Position numbers and translations under genes: made by a program. Of a stretch of DNA of 9,275 bases, positions 4,213 through 9,275 are shown piece by piece. How positions within the stretch are numbered: position 1 is the first letter of the stretch; each line of letters begins with the position of its first letter. Origin of the DNA: Synergistota bacterium (GTDB lineage Bacteria > Synergistota > JAGHAJ01); the NCBI GenBank assembly GCA_021161545.1, contig JAGHAJ010000201.1, positions 1 through 9,275 on the forward strand, in the 5' to 3' direction. The notes under the pieces were generated by a model. That model was given only the letters and a program-made list of their open reading frames with translations. It made no database searches and was not told the origin of the DNA.

Positions 4213-4234
4213 GGAATTTCAAGGAAGAAACCCT
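4211..4234 (+). promoter_or_regulatory. Leader hairpin 1 with GGA in an AAGGAA loop
   Basis: AGGG (4211-4214) pairs with CCCT (4231-4234) and TTTC (4217-4220) pairs with GAAA (4227-4230). The two bases AA (4215-4216) bulge and AAGGAA (4221-4226) forms the loop. This gives 8 base pairs displaying GGA. No T-run follows, so it is not an intrinsic terminator. The two later copies of the loop sequence have only 2 base pairs closing them. Confidence 0.55.
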
Positions 4235-4277
4235 CTTAAAGACCGCAAGGAAGCCTCAAGGAAGACCTGTTTGATTT

Positions 4278-4292
4278 TGTTCACGGATGACA
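4278..4292 (+). promoter_or_regulatory. Leader hairpin 2 with a CGGA tetraloop
   Basis: TCA (4281-4283) pairs with TGA (4288-4290) around the loop CGGA. With T4280 bulged, two further pairs form (T4278-A4292, G4279-C4291). The stem is short, but it reproduces the CA-NGGA-TG geometry of high-affinity CsrA ligands, in which the GGA sits in the loop closed by CA/TG. Confidence 0.45.
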
Positions 4293-4298
4293 TCTTGG

Positions 4299-4313
4299 GC
4301 GCATGGATGCTGC
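4299..4313 (+). promoter_or_regulatory. Leader hairpin 3 with a TGGA tetraloop
   Basis: GCA (4301-4303) pairs with TGC (4308-4310) around the loop TGGA. G4299-C4313 and C4300-G4312 extend the stem across a bulged T4311. The loop GGA is 20 nt from that of hairpin 2 and about 30 nt before the Shine-Dalgarno GGA, distances that one CsrA dimer can bridge. A competing pairing of CATC (4291-4294) with GATG (4306-4309) is possible. Confidence 0.45.
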
Positions 4314-4347
4314 ATATTTATATAAAATTTCAAAGGAGTGAGGAAAG

Positions 4348-6627
4348 ATGATTATTAATCATAATATTTCTGCATTAGATACCTACAGGCACCTTACGAT
4401 AACACAATCTGAGATAGCTAATGCACTGGAGAAGCTTTCATCCGGTCTGAGGATCAACAAGGCTGCTGATGATGCAGCGGGACTTGCCATATCCGAAAAG
4501 ATGCGTGCGCAGATAAAGGGTCTTAATCAGGCTGCTCGTAATGCACAGGATGGCATTTCTTTGGTTCAGACAGCTGAGGGTGCAATGGATGAGCTGCATG
4601 CCATCTTACAGAGGATGAGGGAACTTGCCATTGAGGCGGCTAATGATACGAATACGGCGTTTGAACGTGAACAGATTCAGAAGGAGATAGACCAGCTCAA
4701 GGCAGAGGTGGACCACATTGCTTACTATGCACAGTTCAATACGAGGAAGCTCCTGAGTGGAAATTTGTCTTACAATCTTTTGAAGACCACTGGAGATGCT
4801 TCTATTGACAAACTCTCTGCAGATAGCAGAACAGAGGCAGGGCTGTATCAGGTTGGAATATATCAGGCAGCTGATGAGGCAGAACTCGTTGGAGGAACTG
4901 CATTTCTGGTTAGTAGTGCAGCATCTATGGAAGGTAATACTGCTGCAGTGCTCCACACAGGTACGATAACGATAAACGGTGTTGCAATTCACCTTGACTC
5001 TGATGAGTATCATTCGGCTTCGGATAAGCTACAGTATATAATAGACAAGATAAACGAAAAGACATCACAAACCAATGTTAAGGCGGAGAAATATAAGGAC
5101 CCTTACGATAGCAACATACAGCACCTGAGGCTTGTTCAGCTGGATACCGGCACTGATAATAAGATTGTTCTCGGTGGTGATGAGCAGACTTTAAAGGACA
5201 TAGGATTCGGTTTGAGGAAAGGGTACCAGGGGAATTCAATACTCACCTCTACATGGGATAGAGTGACATTTACGGCATCAGGTGATATATTCATAAACAA
5301 TGTGAATGTCTTTCATGTAACAGCAGGTGTGTCTTACACTTTGCAGTCCTTGGCTAAGATTATAAACGATAAGGCATACTTGACTGGAGTTAGAGCAGAA
5401 GCCATAGAGATAAGTATCGGTTCCGGAATACACAAATGGAGATTTCGTTTAGTGGAGGAGATACCCGGTATAGGAATAGATACGAGGAATACAACTGCGA
5501 GCATATGGTCGCAGCTTGGAGTTTCCGTTGCCAACCTTGATCTGGATGAGATACCTTCTCTTGGTAATACAGATACGGGTGTAAGGTGGTATGAGGGTAA
5601 TAATGAAGGTACTTCTCTATTTGCTGCCAGTATAGGCGAAAGGATAAGAATAAATGGTAACTGGATTGATATCAGGAATGCAAAGAGTCTTGTCTCCATT
5701 GCAGATATCATAAATCAGGCATATCAGATTACCAATGTTAAAGCTGAGGTTGTAGGTGCTGAAATCAGTGGACATGCAAGGCTGAGATTGTATCAGGTTA
5801 CTGCAGATACAAGAAACAAGATAATTATGTACGCAAACGATAATGGCTCTTCTGGTGGTGGACTTGATAAAATGGGATTTGGCATGCCGGATAAGACGGC
5901 GATAATAGATAGAAATGGAGGAGGTGCCCGATATACTACTGGTGTTAATGTCAAGATAAGGGTTTACTCTGCAGATGAGACAGGCCATCACATAAGTATA
6001 GCTGATGATGATGCGCTTATCATAGAGGGTAAGGGTAACAGGGTTACGCTGGATAAAAAGCAGGTTGGTCAGCACATATACACACCACTGAACTACGATT
6101 ATACCAAGAGAGGTATGGGACTTGCAATGGACATATATGGGGAGAATACCCCATGGTATGCTCCGAGAAACTTCACAGTAGGGACTGTAAACCTATGGGG
6201 TAGTGGTGCTGAGATAAAGGTGATGTCAGACAATACCCTCCTATTCCACATAGGTGCGAATGCAGATGAGACATTGAGAATCGATATAGAACCTGTTAGT
6301 GCAGATGCACTTGGCATCTCTAATGTAGATGTTACAACCCATGGAAACGCAGAGCTTGCTATAGATGCCGTCTCTGAAGCTATAAACAAGGTTTCAGAGC
6401 AACGAGCAAAGCTTGGTGCTTATCAGAACAGGCTTGAGCATACTATAAAGAGTTTGAACGTCTCTGCTGAGAACCTGCAGGCAGCAGAATCCCGTATTAG
6501 GGATGTTGATATGGCACAGGAGATGATGGTTTACACCAAGTTGCAGATACTTAATCAGGCAGGCACTGCGATGCTTGCACAGGCAAATACTCTACCTCAG
6601 TCCGTGCTACAGCTCCTCAGGGGATAA
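4348..6627 (+). CDS. fliC: Flagellin, unusually long (759 aa), with three flagellin_IN-like repeats
   Basis: This is the main filament protein, exported and polymerised beyond FlgK/FlgL. The N-terminal D0/D1 is classical: MIINHNISALDTYRHLTITQ (1-20), ALEKLSSGLRINKAADDAAG (26-45), then ISEKMRAQIKGLNQAARNAQ (48-67). The C-terminal D1/D0 is equally clear: FHIGANADETLRIDI at 633-647, RIRDVDMAQEMM at 716-727, and an end QANTLPQSVLQLLRG. Common flagellins run from about 280 to 500 residues. Here residues about 150-630 form a large variable insert with three tandem diverged modules (about 204-290, 311-395, 428-515) and a further beta-rich part (about 530-630). No cysteine is present. The insert is rich in Ser/Thr, relevant to the downstream glycosyltransferase. 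The start follows AAAGGAG at 4332-4338, and translation is probably under CsrA/FliW control through the leader. The gene ends at a strong terminator. Confidence 0.97.
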   Translation: MIINHNISALDTYRHLTITQSEIANALEKLSSGLRINKAADDAAGLAISEKMRAQIKGLNQAARNAQDGISLVQTAEGAMDELHAILQRMRELAIEAANDTNTAFEREQIQKEIDQLKAEVDHIAYYAQFNTRKLLSGNLSYNLLKTTGDASIDKLSADSRTEAGLYQVGIYQAADEAELVGGTAFLVSSAASMEGNTAAVLHTGTITINGVAIHLDSDEYHSASDKLQYIIDKINEKTSQTNVKAEKYKDPYDSNIQHLRLVQLDTGTDNKIVLGGDEQTLKDIGFGLRKGYQGNSILTSTWDRVTFTASGDIFINNVNVFHVTAGVSYTLQSLAKIINDKAYLTGVRAEAIEISIGSGIHKWRFRLVEEIPGIGIDTRNTTASIWSQLGVSVANLDLDEIPSLGNTDTGVRWYEGNNEGTSLFAASIGERIRINGNWIDIRNAKSLVSIADIINQAYQITNVKAEVVGAEISGHARLRLYQVTADTRNKIIMYANDNGSSGGGLDKMGFGMPDKTAIIDRNGGGARYTTGVNVKIRVYSADETGHHISIADDDALIIEGKGNRVTLDKKQVGQHIYTPLNYDYTKRGMGLAMDIYGENTPWYAPRNFTVGTVNLWGSGAEIKVMSDNTLLFHIGANADETLRIDIEPVSADALGISNVDVTTHGNAELAIDAVSEAINKVSEQRAKLGAYQNRLEHTIKSLNVSAENLQAAESRIRDVDMAQEMMVYTKLQILNQAGTAMLAQANTLPQSVLQLLRG
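4957..5217 (+). repeat. Flagellin internal repeat 1 (flagellin_IN-like module)
   Basis: Residues about 204-290: TGTITINGVAIHL strand pair, LQYIIDKINEKTSQTNVKAE helix and strand, HLRLVQLDTGTDNKIVL strands, end KDIGFG. It shares TNVKAE, LRL.Q, NKI and GFG with repeat 3 at equivalent positions. Confidence 0.7.
5278..5532 (+). repeat. Flagellin internal repeat 2 (most diverged copy)
   Basis: Residues about 311-395: SGDIFINNVNVFHV, then SYTLQSLAKIINDKAYLTGV, RAEAIEI, KWRFRLVEEIPG and SQLGVS. Layout matches repeats 1 and 3 (INN for ING, TGVRAE for TNVKAE, FRLVE for LRLVQ, LGVS for GFG), with more substitutions. Confidence 0.6.
5629..5892 (+). repeat. Flagellin internal repeat 3
   Basis: Residues about 428-515: SIGERIRINGNWIDI, SLVSIADIINQAYQITNVKA, ARLRLYQVTADTRNKIIMYA, then LDKMGFG. 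TNVKAE recurs with closely matching codons in repeats 1 (5071-5088) and 3 (5731-5748), separated by 660 nt. Confidence 0.7.
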
Positions 6628-6646
6628 TGCCCTCCTCATTCTTTGG

Positions 6647-6682
6647 GTAGGGACAGTGGTTAGCTGTCCCTACTTATTTTTT
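6647..6682 (+). terminator. Strong Rho-independent terminator after the flagellin gene
   Basis: A perfect 10-bp stem, GTAGGGACAG (6647-6656) with CTGTCCCTAC (6664-6673), closes a 7-nt loop (TGGTTAG). It is followed by TTATTTTTT (6674-6682). It starts 19 nt after the flagellin stop codon and should end the very abundant flagellin transcript, insulating maf. Confidence 0.93.
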
Positions 6683-6683
6683 G

Positions 6684-6692
6684 TGGTATAAT
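6684..6692 (+). promoter_or_regulatory. Extended -10 promoter for maf
   Basis: TGGTATAAT is a perfect extended -10 element (TGnTATAAT) of the housekeeping sigma factor type. The -35 at 17-nt spacing is CTGTCC (6664-6669), only 3 of 6 matches to TTGACA, but extended -10 promoters tolerate that. Transcription would start near 6699, about 33 nt before the GTG start of maf. That the -35 falls inside the terminator stem is notable. Confidence 0.7.
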
Positions 6693-6713: not shown

Positions 6714-6740
6714 TGTGAGGGAGATGTGATTGTGAGGGAG
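6714..6740 (+). promoter_or_regulatory. maf ribosome binding region with a duplicated TGTGAGGGAG
   Basis: GAGGGAG at 6717-6723 is the Shine-Dalgarno and lies 8 nt before GTG at 6732, which decides the start. The 10-mer TGTGAGGGAG occurs at 6714-6723 and again at 6731-6740, the second copy covering the start codon. An in-frame GTG at 6726 is only 2 nt from the Shine-Dalgarno and is less likely. Confidence 0.65.
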
Positions 6741-8630
6741 CATAACTTTCTTGACTCTAATCTGCAAATTATAAAGCATAAAGATAGAGAGCTCTTCTCC
6801 AGATTACGCAAGGTAAAGGCAAAGCAACCTCCGTTTGTGGAGTTTTTTCCGTCTAAGAGTGGTCCCATAATAGCGCGCCTCCAGACGGATGAGGGCAAGG
6901 AATATCTTCTTCACAGCTATTATGATCCACTTGCTGAAGGAGAAGGGGTTGTTAAGAGGATTAACTGGCGTGGTGTTACGCATGTGCTGATACTCGGCTT
7001 TGGATGTGGTTATCATGTAAGGGCAATTCTCAATAGGGTTGGAGAAGATGTTGAAGTGTATGTGATAGAGCCAGATGTTACACTCTTTAAGGCAGTCATA
7101 GAAAATATGGATATGAAGGACATTCTTTCGCATAAGAACTTGAAGTTGTTTGTGGGATTACAACCTATGGGTGTAGTTGGTATGTTCTACAAGGTTTTCA
7201 AAGTGCAGGACCTGAAGTCCATTGAAGTAGTGAAGCACCCTGTTTATGCGAGGCTTGTTTCGAGGTATTTCAATGAGGTAGAGAGGCGGCTTAAAGAGGC
7301 GATAAGGCTCCTACTTACAAATCTCATAACATCTATGGTATCTACAATAAGAGACCAGAGGAATATGCTTTACAATATAGACTGGATAGTGAAGAGTCCG
7401 GGTGTTGGTGAACTCTTTGGCAGGTTTAGAGGTAGGCCTGCTGTTGTTGTCTCTGCTGGACCTTCTTTGGACAAGAATATATACTATTTAAGAGGTATGG
7501 AGGATAGAGTTTTGATAGTTTCCACTGATACTGGCATGAATGCTCTTCTGTCGCACGGTATAAGGCCTCATATTGTTGCTGTGGGAGATCCATTTGAATC
7601 AGACTACAACTGCTTTATGTTTACCCCCCCTGAGGAAGAAGAGGGAATCTGGCTTGTTGCAGACCCAAGGGTTACACCTCGCATACTGAATCACTGGGGT
7701 GGAAGTGTAATGATTGGGGAACTTGGCTCCAGGTTTATGAACTGGTTGAAGCAGTTTGTCGGTGATAAGGGAACCCTTGTTGCATGGGGATCCGTTGCGA
7801 CCCAGGCTATGAGTATAGCTGTCAATTTAGGAGCAAATCCCCTAATATTTATAGGGCAGGATTTATCTTTTGTTGATGGCAGAAAGTATGCTTCTTATAC
7901 TTATGGGGATTATCTTGGCAACAATTATGTTCCCCTGAATGGAAAGGGTTTTACGCTTGAAAAAGACTTGTTTGATAGAGATGTTCCAACTGTCCACAAT
8001 ATGAAGACTTACAGAGATTGGTTTAACCAGCAGATATCTCAGTTACCTATTACAGTTATCAATGCTACAGAGGGAGGGATAATGAGGGAAGGTGTTATCT
8101 GCATGAGTCTTAGGGAAGCGCTGGAAATCCATGCTAAGGAGCCGTTTTATCCACGTGAAACCATAAACAAGATGATAAGGTATCCGAAGGCCGATAGGGA
8201 CGCAAAGAGCGTGAGAGATGGACTTAGGCAGTTGCTGACTGTGGTAGATGAAATATACAATCTTGCGGTATCAGTGCAAAAGGAGATAGATGAGGTATTT
8301 GGAGGTGTTGAGGATCCAAACAAGTTAGAAGGGTTTAACTGGAATGAGATCCTCTTTAAACTTGAAAGTAGTGAAAAGGAGCTACGGGCCTTGATGAAGA
8401 AAGGAAGGTTCGTAGGTGATGGCTTTTTTGTGATACTACTAAACTTTGGTAGATTGATGGACAATGCACGTAAAAACCCCGATGAAGTGAAAAGGAATGC
8501 GGAGCAAGTGGCATCTTATATGGAACTCTTCAAAGGTGTGGAACAGATTGCCTTGAAGTATAGGAAGATGCTTTGTAACGCAATCGATAAGCTAAATGTG
8601 TTGATTCAAGGAGTGAAGGTACATGCCTAA
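6732..8630 (+). CDS. Maf family (DUF115 / MptE-like) flagellin glycosyltransferase
   Basis: Motility-associated factor (Maf) proteins are cytoplasmic enzymes that attach nonulosonic acids such as pseudaminic or legionaminic acid to Ser/Thr of flagellin before export. The 632-residue protein (GTG start) has the expected order. Residues about 60-190 are the Maf N-terminal domain with a Rossmann-like VLILGFGCGYHVRAIL (85-100) and YVIEPD (110-115). The DUF115 domain starts near 234 (GRPAVVVSAGPSLDKN), with STDTG (264-268), VGDPF (284-288), NLGANPLIFIGQDLSF (365-380) and NATEGG (444-449). A helical C-terminal part follows. The frame stays open upstream to 6681, but that region is the terminator and promoter, so the GTG at 6732 is preferred. 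The gene directly follows flagellin yet has its own promoter. The sugar donor cannot be read from the sequence, and no sugar synthesis genes are in view. Confidence 0.88.
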   Translation: MREHNFLDSNLQIIKHKDRELFSRLRKVKAKQPPFVEFFPSKSGPIIARLQTDEGKEYLLHSYYDPLAEGEGVVKRINWRGVTHVLILGFGCGYHVRAILNRVGEDVEVYVIEPDVTLFKAVIENMDMKDILSHKNLKLFVGLQPMGVVGMFYKVFKVQDLKSIEVVKHPVYARLVSRYFNEVERRLKEAIRLLLTNLITSMVSTIRDQRNMLYNIDWIVKSPGVGELFGRFRGRPAVVVSAGPSLDKNIYYLRGMEDRVLIVSTDTGMNALLSHGIRPHIVAVGDPFESDYNCFMFTPPEEEEGIWLVADPRVTPRILNHWGGSVMIGELGSRFMNWLKQFVGDKGTLVAWGSVATQAMSIAVNLGANPLIFIGQDLSFVDGRKYASYTYGDYLGNNYVPLNGKGFTLEKDLFDRDVPTVHNMKTYRDWFNQQISQLPITVINATEGGIMREGVICMSLREALEIHAKEPFYPRETINKMIRYPKADRDAKSVRDGLRQLLTVVDEIYNLAVSVQKEIDEVFGGVEDPNKLEGFNWNEILFKLESSEKELRALMKKGRFVGDGFFVILLNFGRLMDNARKNPDEVKRNAEQVASYMELFKGVEQIALKYRKMLCNAIDKLNVLIQGVKVHA

Positions 8631-9275
8631 TTTCCCTGCATCTGTTGGGGCAGTTACTGTGCATGGAAATATCGCTTATGTCGTGGACCCGATAGGAAGC
8701 AAGATATGGATACTTGATAGGGATTTGCAGTTTGTAGATAGTTTTGGTAAAAGGGGTAGAAAGAAAGGTGAGCTGTTTTATCCCAACTCGGTGGCAGTAA
8801 AGGATAGTTTTATACATGTCGTAGACTCGTTTAATAATAGGATTCAGGTCTTTGATAGTGACTTTCGGCTTACGGAAATACATGGTAAAAGTGGTGTAAG
8901 ATTAGGTGAACATACAATGCCAGTAGATATTATGTTTATTGACGATAACGCCTTTGTGCTTGAGAGGGATAATAATCGTATTCAGGTATTCTCTTCTGAG
9001 TGGAAACCTTTGTGGATGTTTGGAGGAGTCTACAAACCTCCAAGAGATGGTATTGCTACCTACCTTGGTTCAATAGATGAGTATATGGATGGATATGGTT
9101 TTCTTTATCCTGTTAGGTTTATAAGGGGAAGAAAAGGAGATATGTTTGTTGTTAATTCAGGAAATGATATGATTTTGAGGTTGGATAGCAGGTGGTGTAA
9201 GGTTGATGATACTGTCATATATCCTTACCCTTATTCTGTTGCTTTTATCTCTTCTGGTTATATAATAGTAGCTCC
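8623..9275 (+). CDS. NHL-repeat beta-propeller protein (partial, 3' end outside window)
   Basis: The frame is open from ATG at 8623 to the window edge, giving 217 codons without a stop. NHL-type blades recur: AYVVDPIGSKIWILDRDLQF (19-38), YPNSVAVKDSFIHVVDSFNN (53-72) continuing RIQVFD, FVLERDNNRIQVFSSEW (111-127), and YPVRFIRGRKGDMFVVNSGN (162-181). The Asn-Asn-Arg-Ile-Gln-Val-Phe core appears twice, and about four blades are visible with a 20-residue insert before the fourth. There is no signal peptide, so the product is predicted to be cytoplasmic. The ATG overlaps the maf stop by 8 nt and has AAGGAGTG at 8608-8615, which implies coupled translation. NHL propellers bind proteins, RNA or carbohydrates, and no specific function can be given here. 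A link with flagellin modification is inferred from position only. Confidence 0.8.
   Translation, partial: MPNFPASVGAVTVHGNIAYVVDPIGSKIWILDRDLQFVDSFGKRGRKKGELFYPNSVAVKDSFIHVVDSFNNRIQVFDSDFRLTEIHGKSGVRLGEHTMPVDIMFIDDNAFVLERDNNRIQVFSSEWKPLWMFGGVYKPPRDGIATYLGSIDEYMDGYGFLYPVRFIRGRKGDMFVVNSGNDMILRLDSRWCKVDDTVIYPYPYSVAFISSGYIIVA

Follow-up and report, generated by a model that had tools for sequence, protein, structure and literature searches.

An NHL-repeat propeller gene overlapping maf in a flagellar locus of a Synergistota bacterium

Among described systems, the locus analysed here is closest to those of the Maf flagellin glycosyltransferases, such as Maf1 of Aeromonas caviae and the protein of structure 5mu5. 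The likeness lies in a common MptE-like/Maf central domain, in the position beside flagellin and fliW-csrA, and in the presence of nonulosonic acid (NulO) genes in the genome. These systems differ from the locus described below, where maf is overlapped by a gene for an NHL-repeat propeller, and the literature that we searched on Maf and NulO loci describes no NHL or propeller protein in a flagellin glycosylation locus. In TRIM-NHL proteins (TRIM71, Brat, Thin), the repeats build a propeller of six blades, which serves to bind protein or RNA. These proteins share NHL repeats with the one studied here, which probably has six blades as well, but they are eukaryotic and mostly joined to RING/B-box domains. 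In Nostoc, the scytonemin biosynthetic operon includes a gene for an NHL propeller, ScyF, which acts as an adjuvant, in that the yield of a scyF mutant is reduced but not abolished (PMC4870267). Along a single stretch, the window NHL protein matched the ScyF model (7.6e-16), but its 58.2 bits lie far under the family cut-off of 350. Besides this partial match, ScyF differs in its PEP-CTERM motif and in belonging to an unrelated pathway. Finally, an NHL protein of the rorf1/YjiK type is encoded beside the type III secretion genes of the LEE locus (PMC1084347); the likeness is one of protein type and gene setting, and the secretion system is another one, at a locus not devoted to glycosylation.

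The maf-NHL gene pair and its products

Contig C26 (9,275 nt), which makes up the entire window, comes from a Synergistota genome bin that is 82% complete and comprises 288 contigs. Its gene order is flgK, flgL, fliW, csrA, fliC, maf, NHL, and all features given below lie on the forward strand. The presumed Maf substrate is the flagellin encoded by fliC (4348-6627; Pfam Flagellin_N, 1.8e-46; Flagellin_C, 2.5e-31), a long protein (759 aa) whose variable middle contains a Flagellin_IN motif. Directly 3' of fliW-csrA, the fliC leader (4213-4347) contains three AAGGAAG boxes (at about 4221, 4247 and 4258) and additional GGA motifs at the Shine-Dalgarno sequence. This pattern of CsrA sites makes control of flagellin translation by CsrA-FliW probable; the leader fold is less stable than those of shuffled sequences (z 2.5). 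An intrinsic terminator (6644-6676; stem of 14 pairs, loop of 5, T-run) stands between fliC and maf, and is followed by an extended -10 element, TGGTATAAT (6684-6692), which we read as the probable maf-NHL promoter and which has no good -35 element. Because the terminator and the extended -10 set the pair apart from fliC, maf and the NHL gene probably form a transcription unit of their own.

The best placement of the maf start is a GTG at 6732, giving a 632-aa protein (6732-8630). Its central domain matched MptE-like/Maf (DUF115; PF01973) with 123.7 bits over residues 210-381, full-length orthologues were found at 40-42% identity, and it matched 5mu5, which we take to be a Maf structure, at E 9e-6. 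Moreover, maf lies directly after fliC, and the genome bin encodes elsewhere two NeuB proteins, a CMP-sugar transferase (CTP_transf_3) beside one of them, and PseG-like ORFs, whose likeness was judged by eye and which had no Pfam match. The label of flagellin glycosyltransferase in the preliminary description therefore found support, and use of a nonulosonic acid by this enzyme is well supported by sequence comparison. The NCBIfam PseD model NF050051 gave 70 bits on the window Maf against a cut-off of 670, and the Maf N-terminal domain PF20157, present on the sister Maf of genome G373 described below, was not reported on it. This shortfall limits the name PseD, not the name Maf. An AlphaFold model of the protein was weak (pLDDT 51). 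Two other contigs of the same bin (G000), C151 and C243 (L128, L129), both end in one PseG-like coding sequence, which implies that some of the NulO genes are present in repeat and that assembly broke off at the repeat.

The NHL ORF begins with an ATG at 8623 and has no stop through 9275, giving a first part of 217 codons, or about 4.5 blades. This frame is coding: its 217 codons contain no stop, each of the other five has 3-30, and its codon likelihood is the highest of the six. Since the contig ends at 9275, the gene was cut by the assembly. The preliminary description had proposed obtaining the rest of it, but the remainder was not found in the bin by DNA search, by the terminal 23-mer or by a Pfam NHL scan; the last of these also detected no other convincing NHL gene. 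The identity of the product as an NHL propeller, likewise proposed earlier, was borne out by the Pfam NHL profile (PF01436; 20.9 bits, cut-off 20), with the best repeat in the second blade (8779-8853; profile positions 3-28) and the next in the third (8941-8991; positions 12-28), and by matches to solved structures, where the NHL domains of TRIM71, Thin and Brat ranked on top with E down to 1e-28. Scores for the six-blade propellers TolB_like and DUF5128 were slightly under their cut-offs. A full ring of six blades would take about 60-80 more residues, and the complete protein is probably of this kind, with about 280 aa. The first blade starts within about the first ten residues, with no evident N-terminal membrane anchor or signal peptide (highest 19-residue hydropathy 1.26); we infer that the full protein is cytoplasmic. 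The predicted pI of the known part is about 6. A single-sequence AlphaFold model, limited to the 217 codons, was poor (pLDDT 48) and placed strands in propeller-like groups. PHROGs yielded a single marginal match, with no function assigned to it, and the defence library yielded none. The GC content of the gene (38.1%) and its GC3 (31%) are below those of its neighbours, and its GC3 ranks among the bottom 6% of the ORFs sampled; this composition is consistent with recent acquisition and no settled role.

The maf stop codon (TAA, 8628-8630) falls inside the start region of the NHL gene, and the two ORFs have 8 nt in common, ATGCCTAA (8623-8630). Within maf, AAGGAG (8608-8613) sits 9 nt 5' of the NHL ATG, and GAAGG (8615-8619) is a second, weak Shine-Dalgarno match. 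The overlap and ribosome-binding site were thus as first described, and had been taken to tie the two products in amount. Overlaps of a few bases permit termination-reinitiation, couple translation and are enriched among complex subunits (PMC10666635). However, in a 138-kb sample of the same bin, overlaps occurred in 24 of the 68 same-strand pairs with a Shine-Dalgarno-supported start (35%), 19 of them by 1-20 nt, and the maf/NHL overlap is no more than is expected for any operon pair. Since overlaps are so frequent in this genome, this one argues for co-translation and hardly for shared function, and on the same overlap rate we rejected the overlap alone as proof of partnership. Of the earlier claim, co-transcription and translational coupling stand as probable, whereas the pair is not singled out by them.

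Maf neighbourhoods in two phyla

Whether maf-NHL adjacency recurs was the check proposed in the preliminary description. A Maf-like gene was present in 59 of 185 genomes sampled from the window's phylum. We read 58 neighbourhoods containing 61 Maf ORFs besides the window, extending up to about 7 kb per side where the contig allows, and 51 of the 61 ORFs had at least 600 bases downstream. With the window protein and blade and propeller profiles as queries (the profiles recovered 13 of 13 control loci), no NHL propeller ORF was detected near Maf at any of these 58 loci. The customary order in the phylum is fliW-csrA-maf-fliC. Even the three genomes with the closest full-length Maf proteins (40-42% identity) lack an NHL gene at the locus; in these, maf is followed by an ORF of 87-89 residues with two hydrophobic stretches, a small two-helix membrane protein (L047:6553-6822, L048:8222-8491 and L049:8465-8728), and the one such protein scanned had no Pfam match. 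Weak NHL relatives occur in nine other genomes of the phylum. Where their surroundings were read, the context is unrelated: aldolase and dehydrogenase genes, a histidine kinase and a peptidase, and UDP-sugar and tRNA-processing genes.

In the phylum of Paenibacillus, 91 of 348 sampled genomes had a Maf match, and 79 neighbourhoods were read. An NHL gene was found at one of these 79 loci, in genome G373, and about 136 other Maf loci across both phyla are without one. Adjacency is therefore unique to the window within its own phylum and has one independent case beyond it; with 0 of 58 and 1 of 79 loci, maf and NHL do not form a conserved module. When the whole genomes of this sample were searched for NHL proteins, no further match near Maf was among those listed (three candidates scored per genome).

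The G373 locus reads fliW-csrA-fliC-flaG-fliD-ORF-maf-pseB-pseC-NHL-legB, after which come genes of the aminotransferase, epimerase and NeuB-like kinds. One long run (L185:2-11598, L282) holds the genes for flagellin and Maf together with those of Pse-type and Leg-type pathways, and its content of pseB-pseC plus a LegB-like gene with an aminotransferase suggests two nonulosonic acids in this organism. The NHL gene starts a few bases after pseC and runs into the legB ORF. The 661-residue product contains two NHL regions and lacks an N-terminal anchor. Both this propeller and that of the window begin at the first blade, unanchored; by contrast, the best-matching NHL relatives among those sampled from the class of G373 carry an N-terminal hydrophobic stretch.

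A tree built from 38 Maf proteins placed the G373 Maf as sister to the clade of the window and f3 (support 0.89), and this Maf is the nearest relative that we found outside the window's phylum. An NHL neighbour occurs in one of four members of that Maf clade, while the other loci, about 133 in number, have none (p = 0.03), a count that omits the window as the discovery case and a test made after the data had been seen. NHL genes are also numerous in this class, with 5-25 matched segments in 9 of 10 genomes and 25 in G373 itself, so that the copy beside maf could be there by chance. No NHL match lies near the main Maf loci of the other four Maf-bearing genomes of the class.

Orthology of the window and G373 propellers was not supported, as the G373 protein scored like unrelated NHL proteins. 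In the best single alignments to the window propeller, a Bacteroidetes propeller came first, and that of G373 came second, level with several unrelated ones. A wider contig scan with the window NHL protein returned three weak propellers from Bacteroidetes and Paenibacillus. Taken together, these results agree better with sporadic recruitment on separate occasions than with an ancient common module.

Possible roles of the NHL protein

We tentatively favour, at somewhat below an even chance, the reading that the NHL propeller is a sporadically recruited, dispensable accessory of Maf/nonulosonic acid glycosylation; any role of the protein in glycosylation is one that we infer. A soluble, cytoplasmic propeller would be co-transcribed with maf and translated largely by ribosomes finishing maf, such that both products are made together. 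Maf would put a nonulosonic acid of the pseudaminic or legionaminic type on flagellin in the cytoplasm, and the propeller may serve as a protein-binding adjuvant that docks Maf, flagellin in its unfolded state or an enzyme supplying the sugar. By analogy with ScyF, it would be dispensable and outside the core. We favour this reading because of the overlap and Shine-Dalgarno sequence within a shared unit behind its own terminator and promoter, the presence in the bin of genes for NeuB, CTP_transf_3 and PseG-like proteins, the recurrence of an NHL gene in the maf-pse-leg operon of G373 with a sister Maf, the excess of NHL neighbours in that Maf clade, the unanchored form of both propellers, unlike sampled class relatives, and the ScyF precedent. 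Against it count the lack of NHL genes at the closest Maf loci and at the others read in the phylum, the lack of support for orthology between the propellers, the abundance of overlaps in the window's genome and of NHL genes in G373, and the low GC3. The more specific role put forward earlier, that of a scaffold, a sugar-binding protein or a regulatory partner of Maf or flagellin, found no support.

The main rival, which is nearly as likely, is that the NHL gene is a passenger that landed behind maf, or that it heads an unrelated downstream operon sharing the maf promoter, the overlap reflecting genome compactness only. Several of the results above agree with this: the phylum shows no conservation of the adjacency, overlaps affect 35% of the tandem pairs sampled from the genome, the GC3 of the gene is atypical, a specific orthologue of the propeller was not found, and the contig ends inside the gene, leaving its downstream side out of view. 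Evidence on the other side is the recurrence in a maf-pse-leg operon of another phylum with a sister Maf, and the Pfam scan of the bin, which gave no other convincing NHL gene, so that numbers do not favour a random copy beside maf.

A sugar-processing or sugar-binding six-blade propeller acting on the nonulosonic acid or a precursor, similar to SMP-30/gluconolactonase or a lyase, is improbable. Its support comes from G373, where SGL, Vgb_lyase and arylesterase, six-blade families with enzymatic members, score on the protein and the gene lies between pseC and legB among sugar-nucleotide enzymes. The window protein, however, was scored only by NHL, TolB_like and DUF5128, nearly all sampled Maf loci are without an NHL gene, and the known Pse and Leg pathways, which to our knowledge are complete without a propeller protein, need none. 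Least probable is an RNA-binding regulator that, like TRIM-NHL, would bind the fliC or maf transcript in addition to CsrA-FliW control: the best structure matches are the NHL domains of TRIM71, Thin and Brat, several of which bind RNA, and CsrA-type GGA sites lie in the fliC leader beside fliW-csrA, but the predicted pI of the known part is not basic, and the TRIM-NHL matches mirror which NHL structures are solved.

A bolder form of the accessory reading is that a Maf subfamily of two phyla sometimes pairs with a dedicated cytoplasmic NHL propeller uniting Maf, NulO enzymes and unfolded flagellin; we consider this unlikely. Such a glycosylation scaffold is not described for flagellar systems in the literature searched, and we know of no flagellar system that has one. 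If the NHL gene is only a passenger, the locus stands as a caution that short overlaps are too common to indicate shared function. If instead the propeller is a partner made together with Maf, it would offer a handle on how Maf chooses Ser/Thr residues before export and, likewise, on whether there is a physical link between the supply of the sugar and its transfer.
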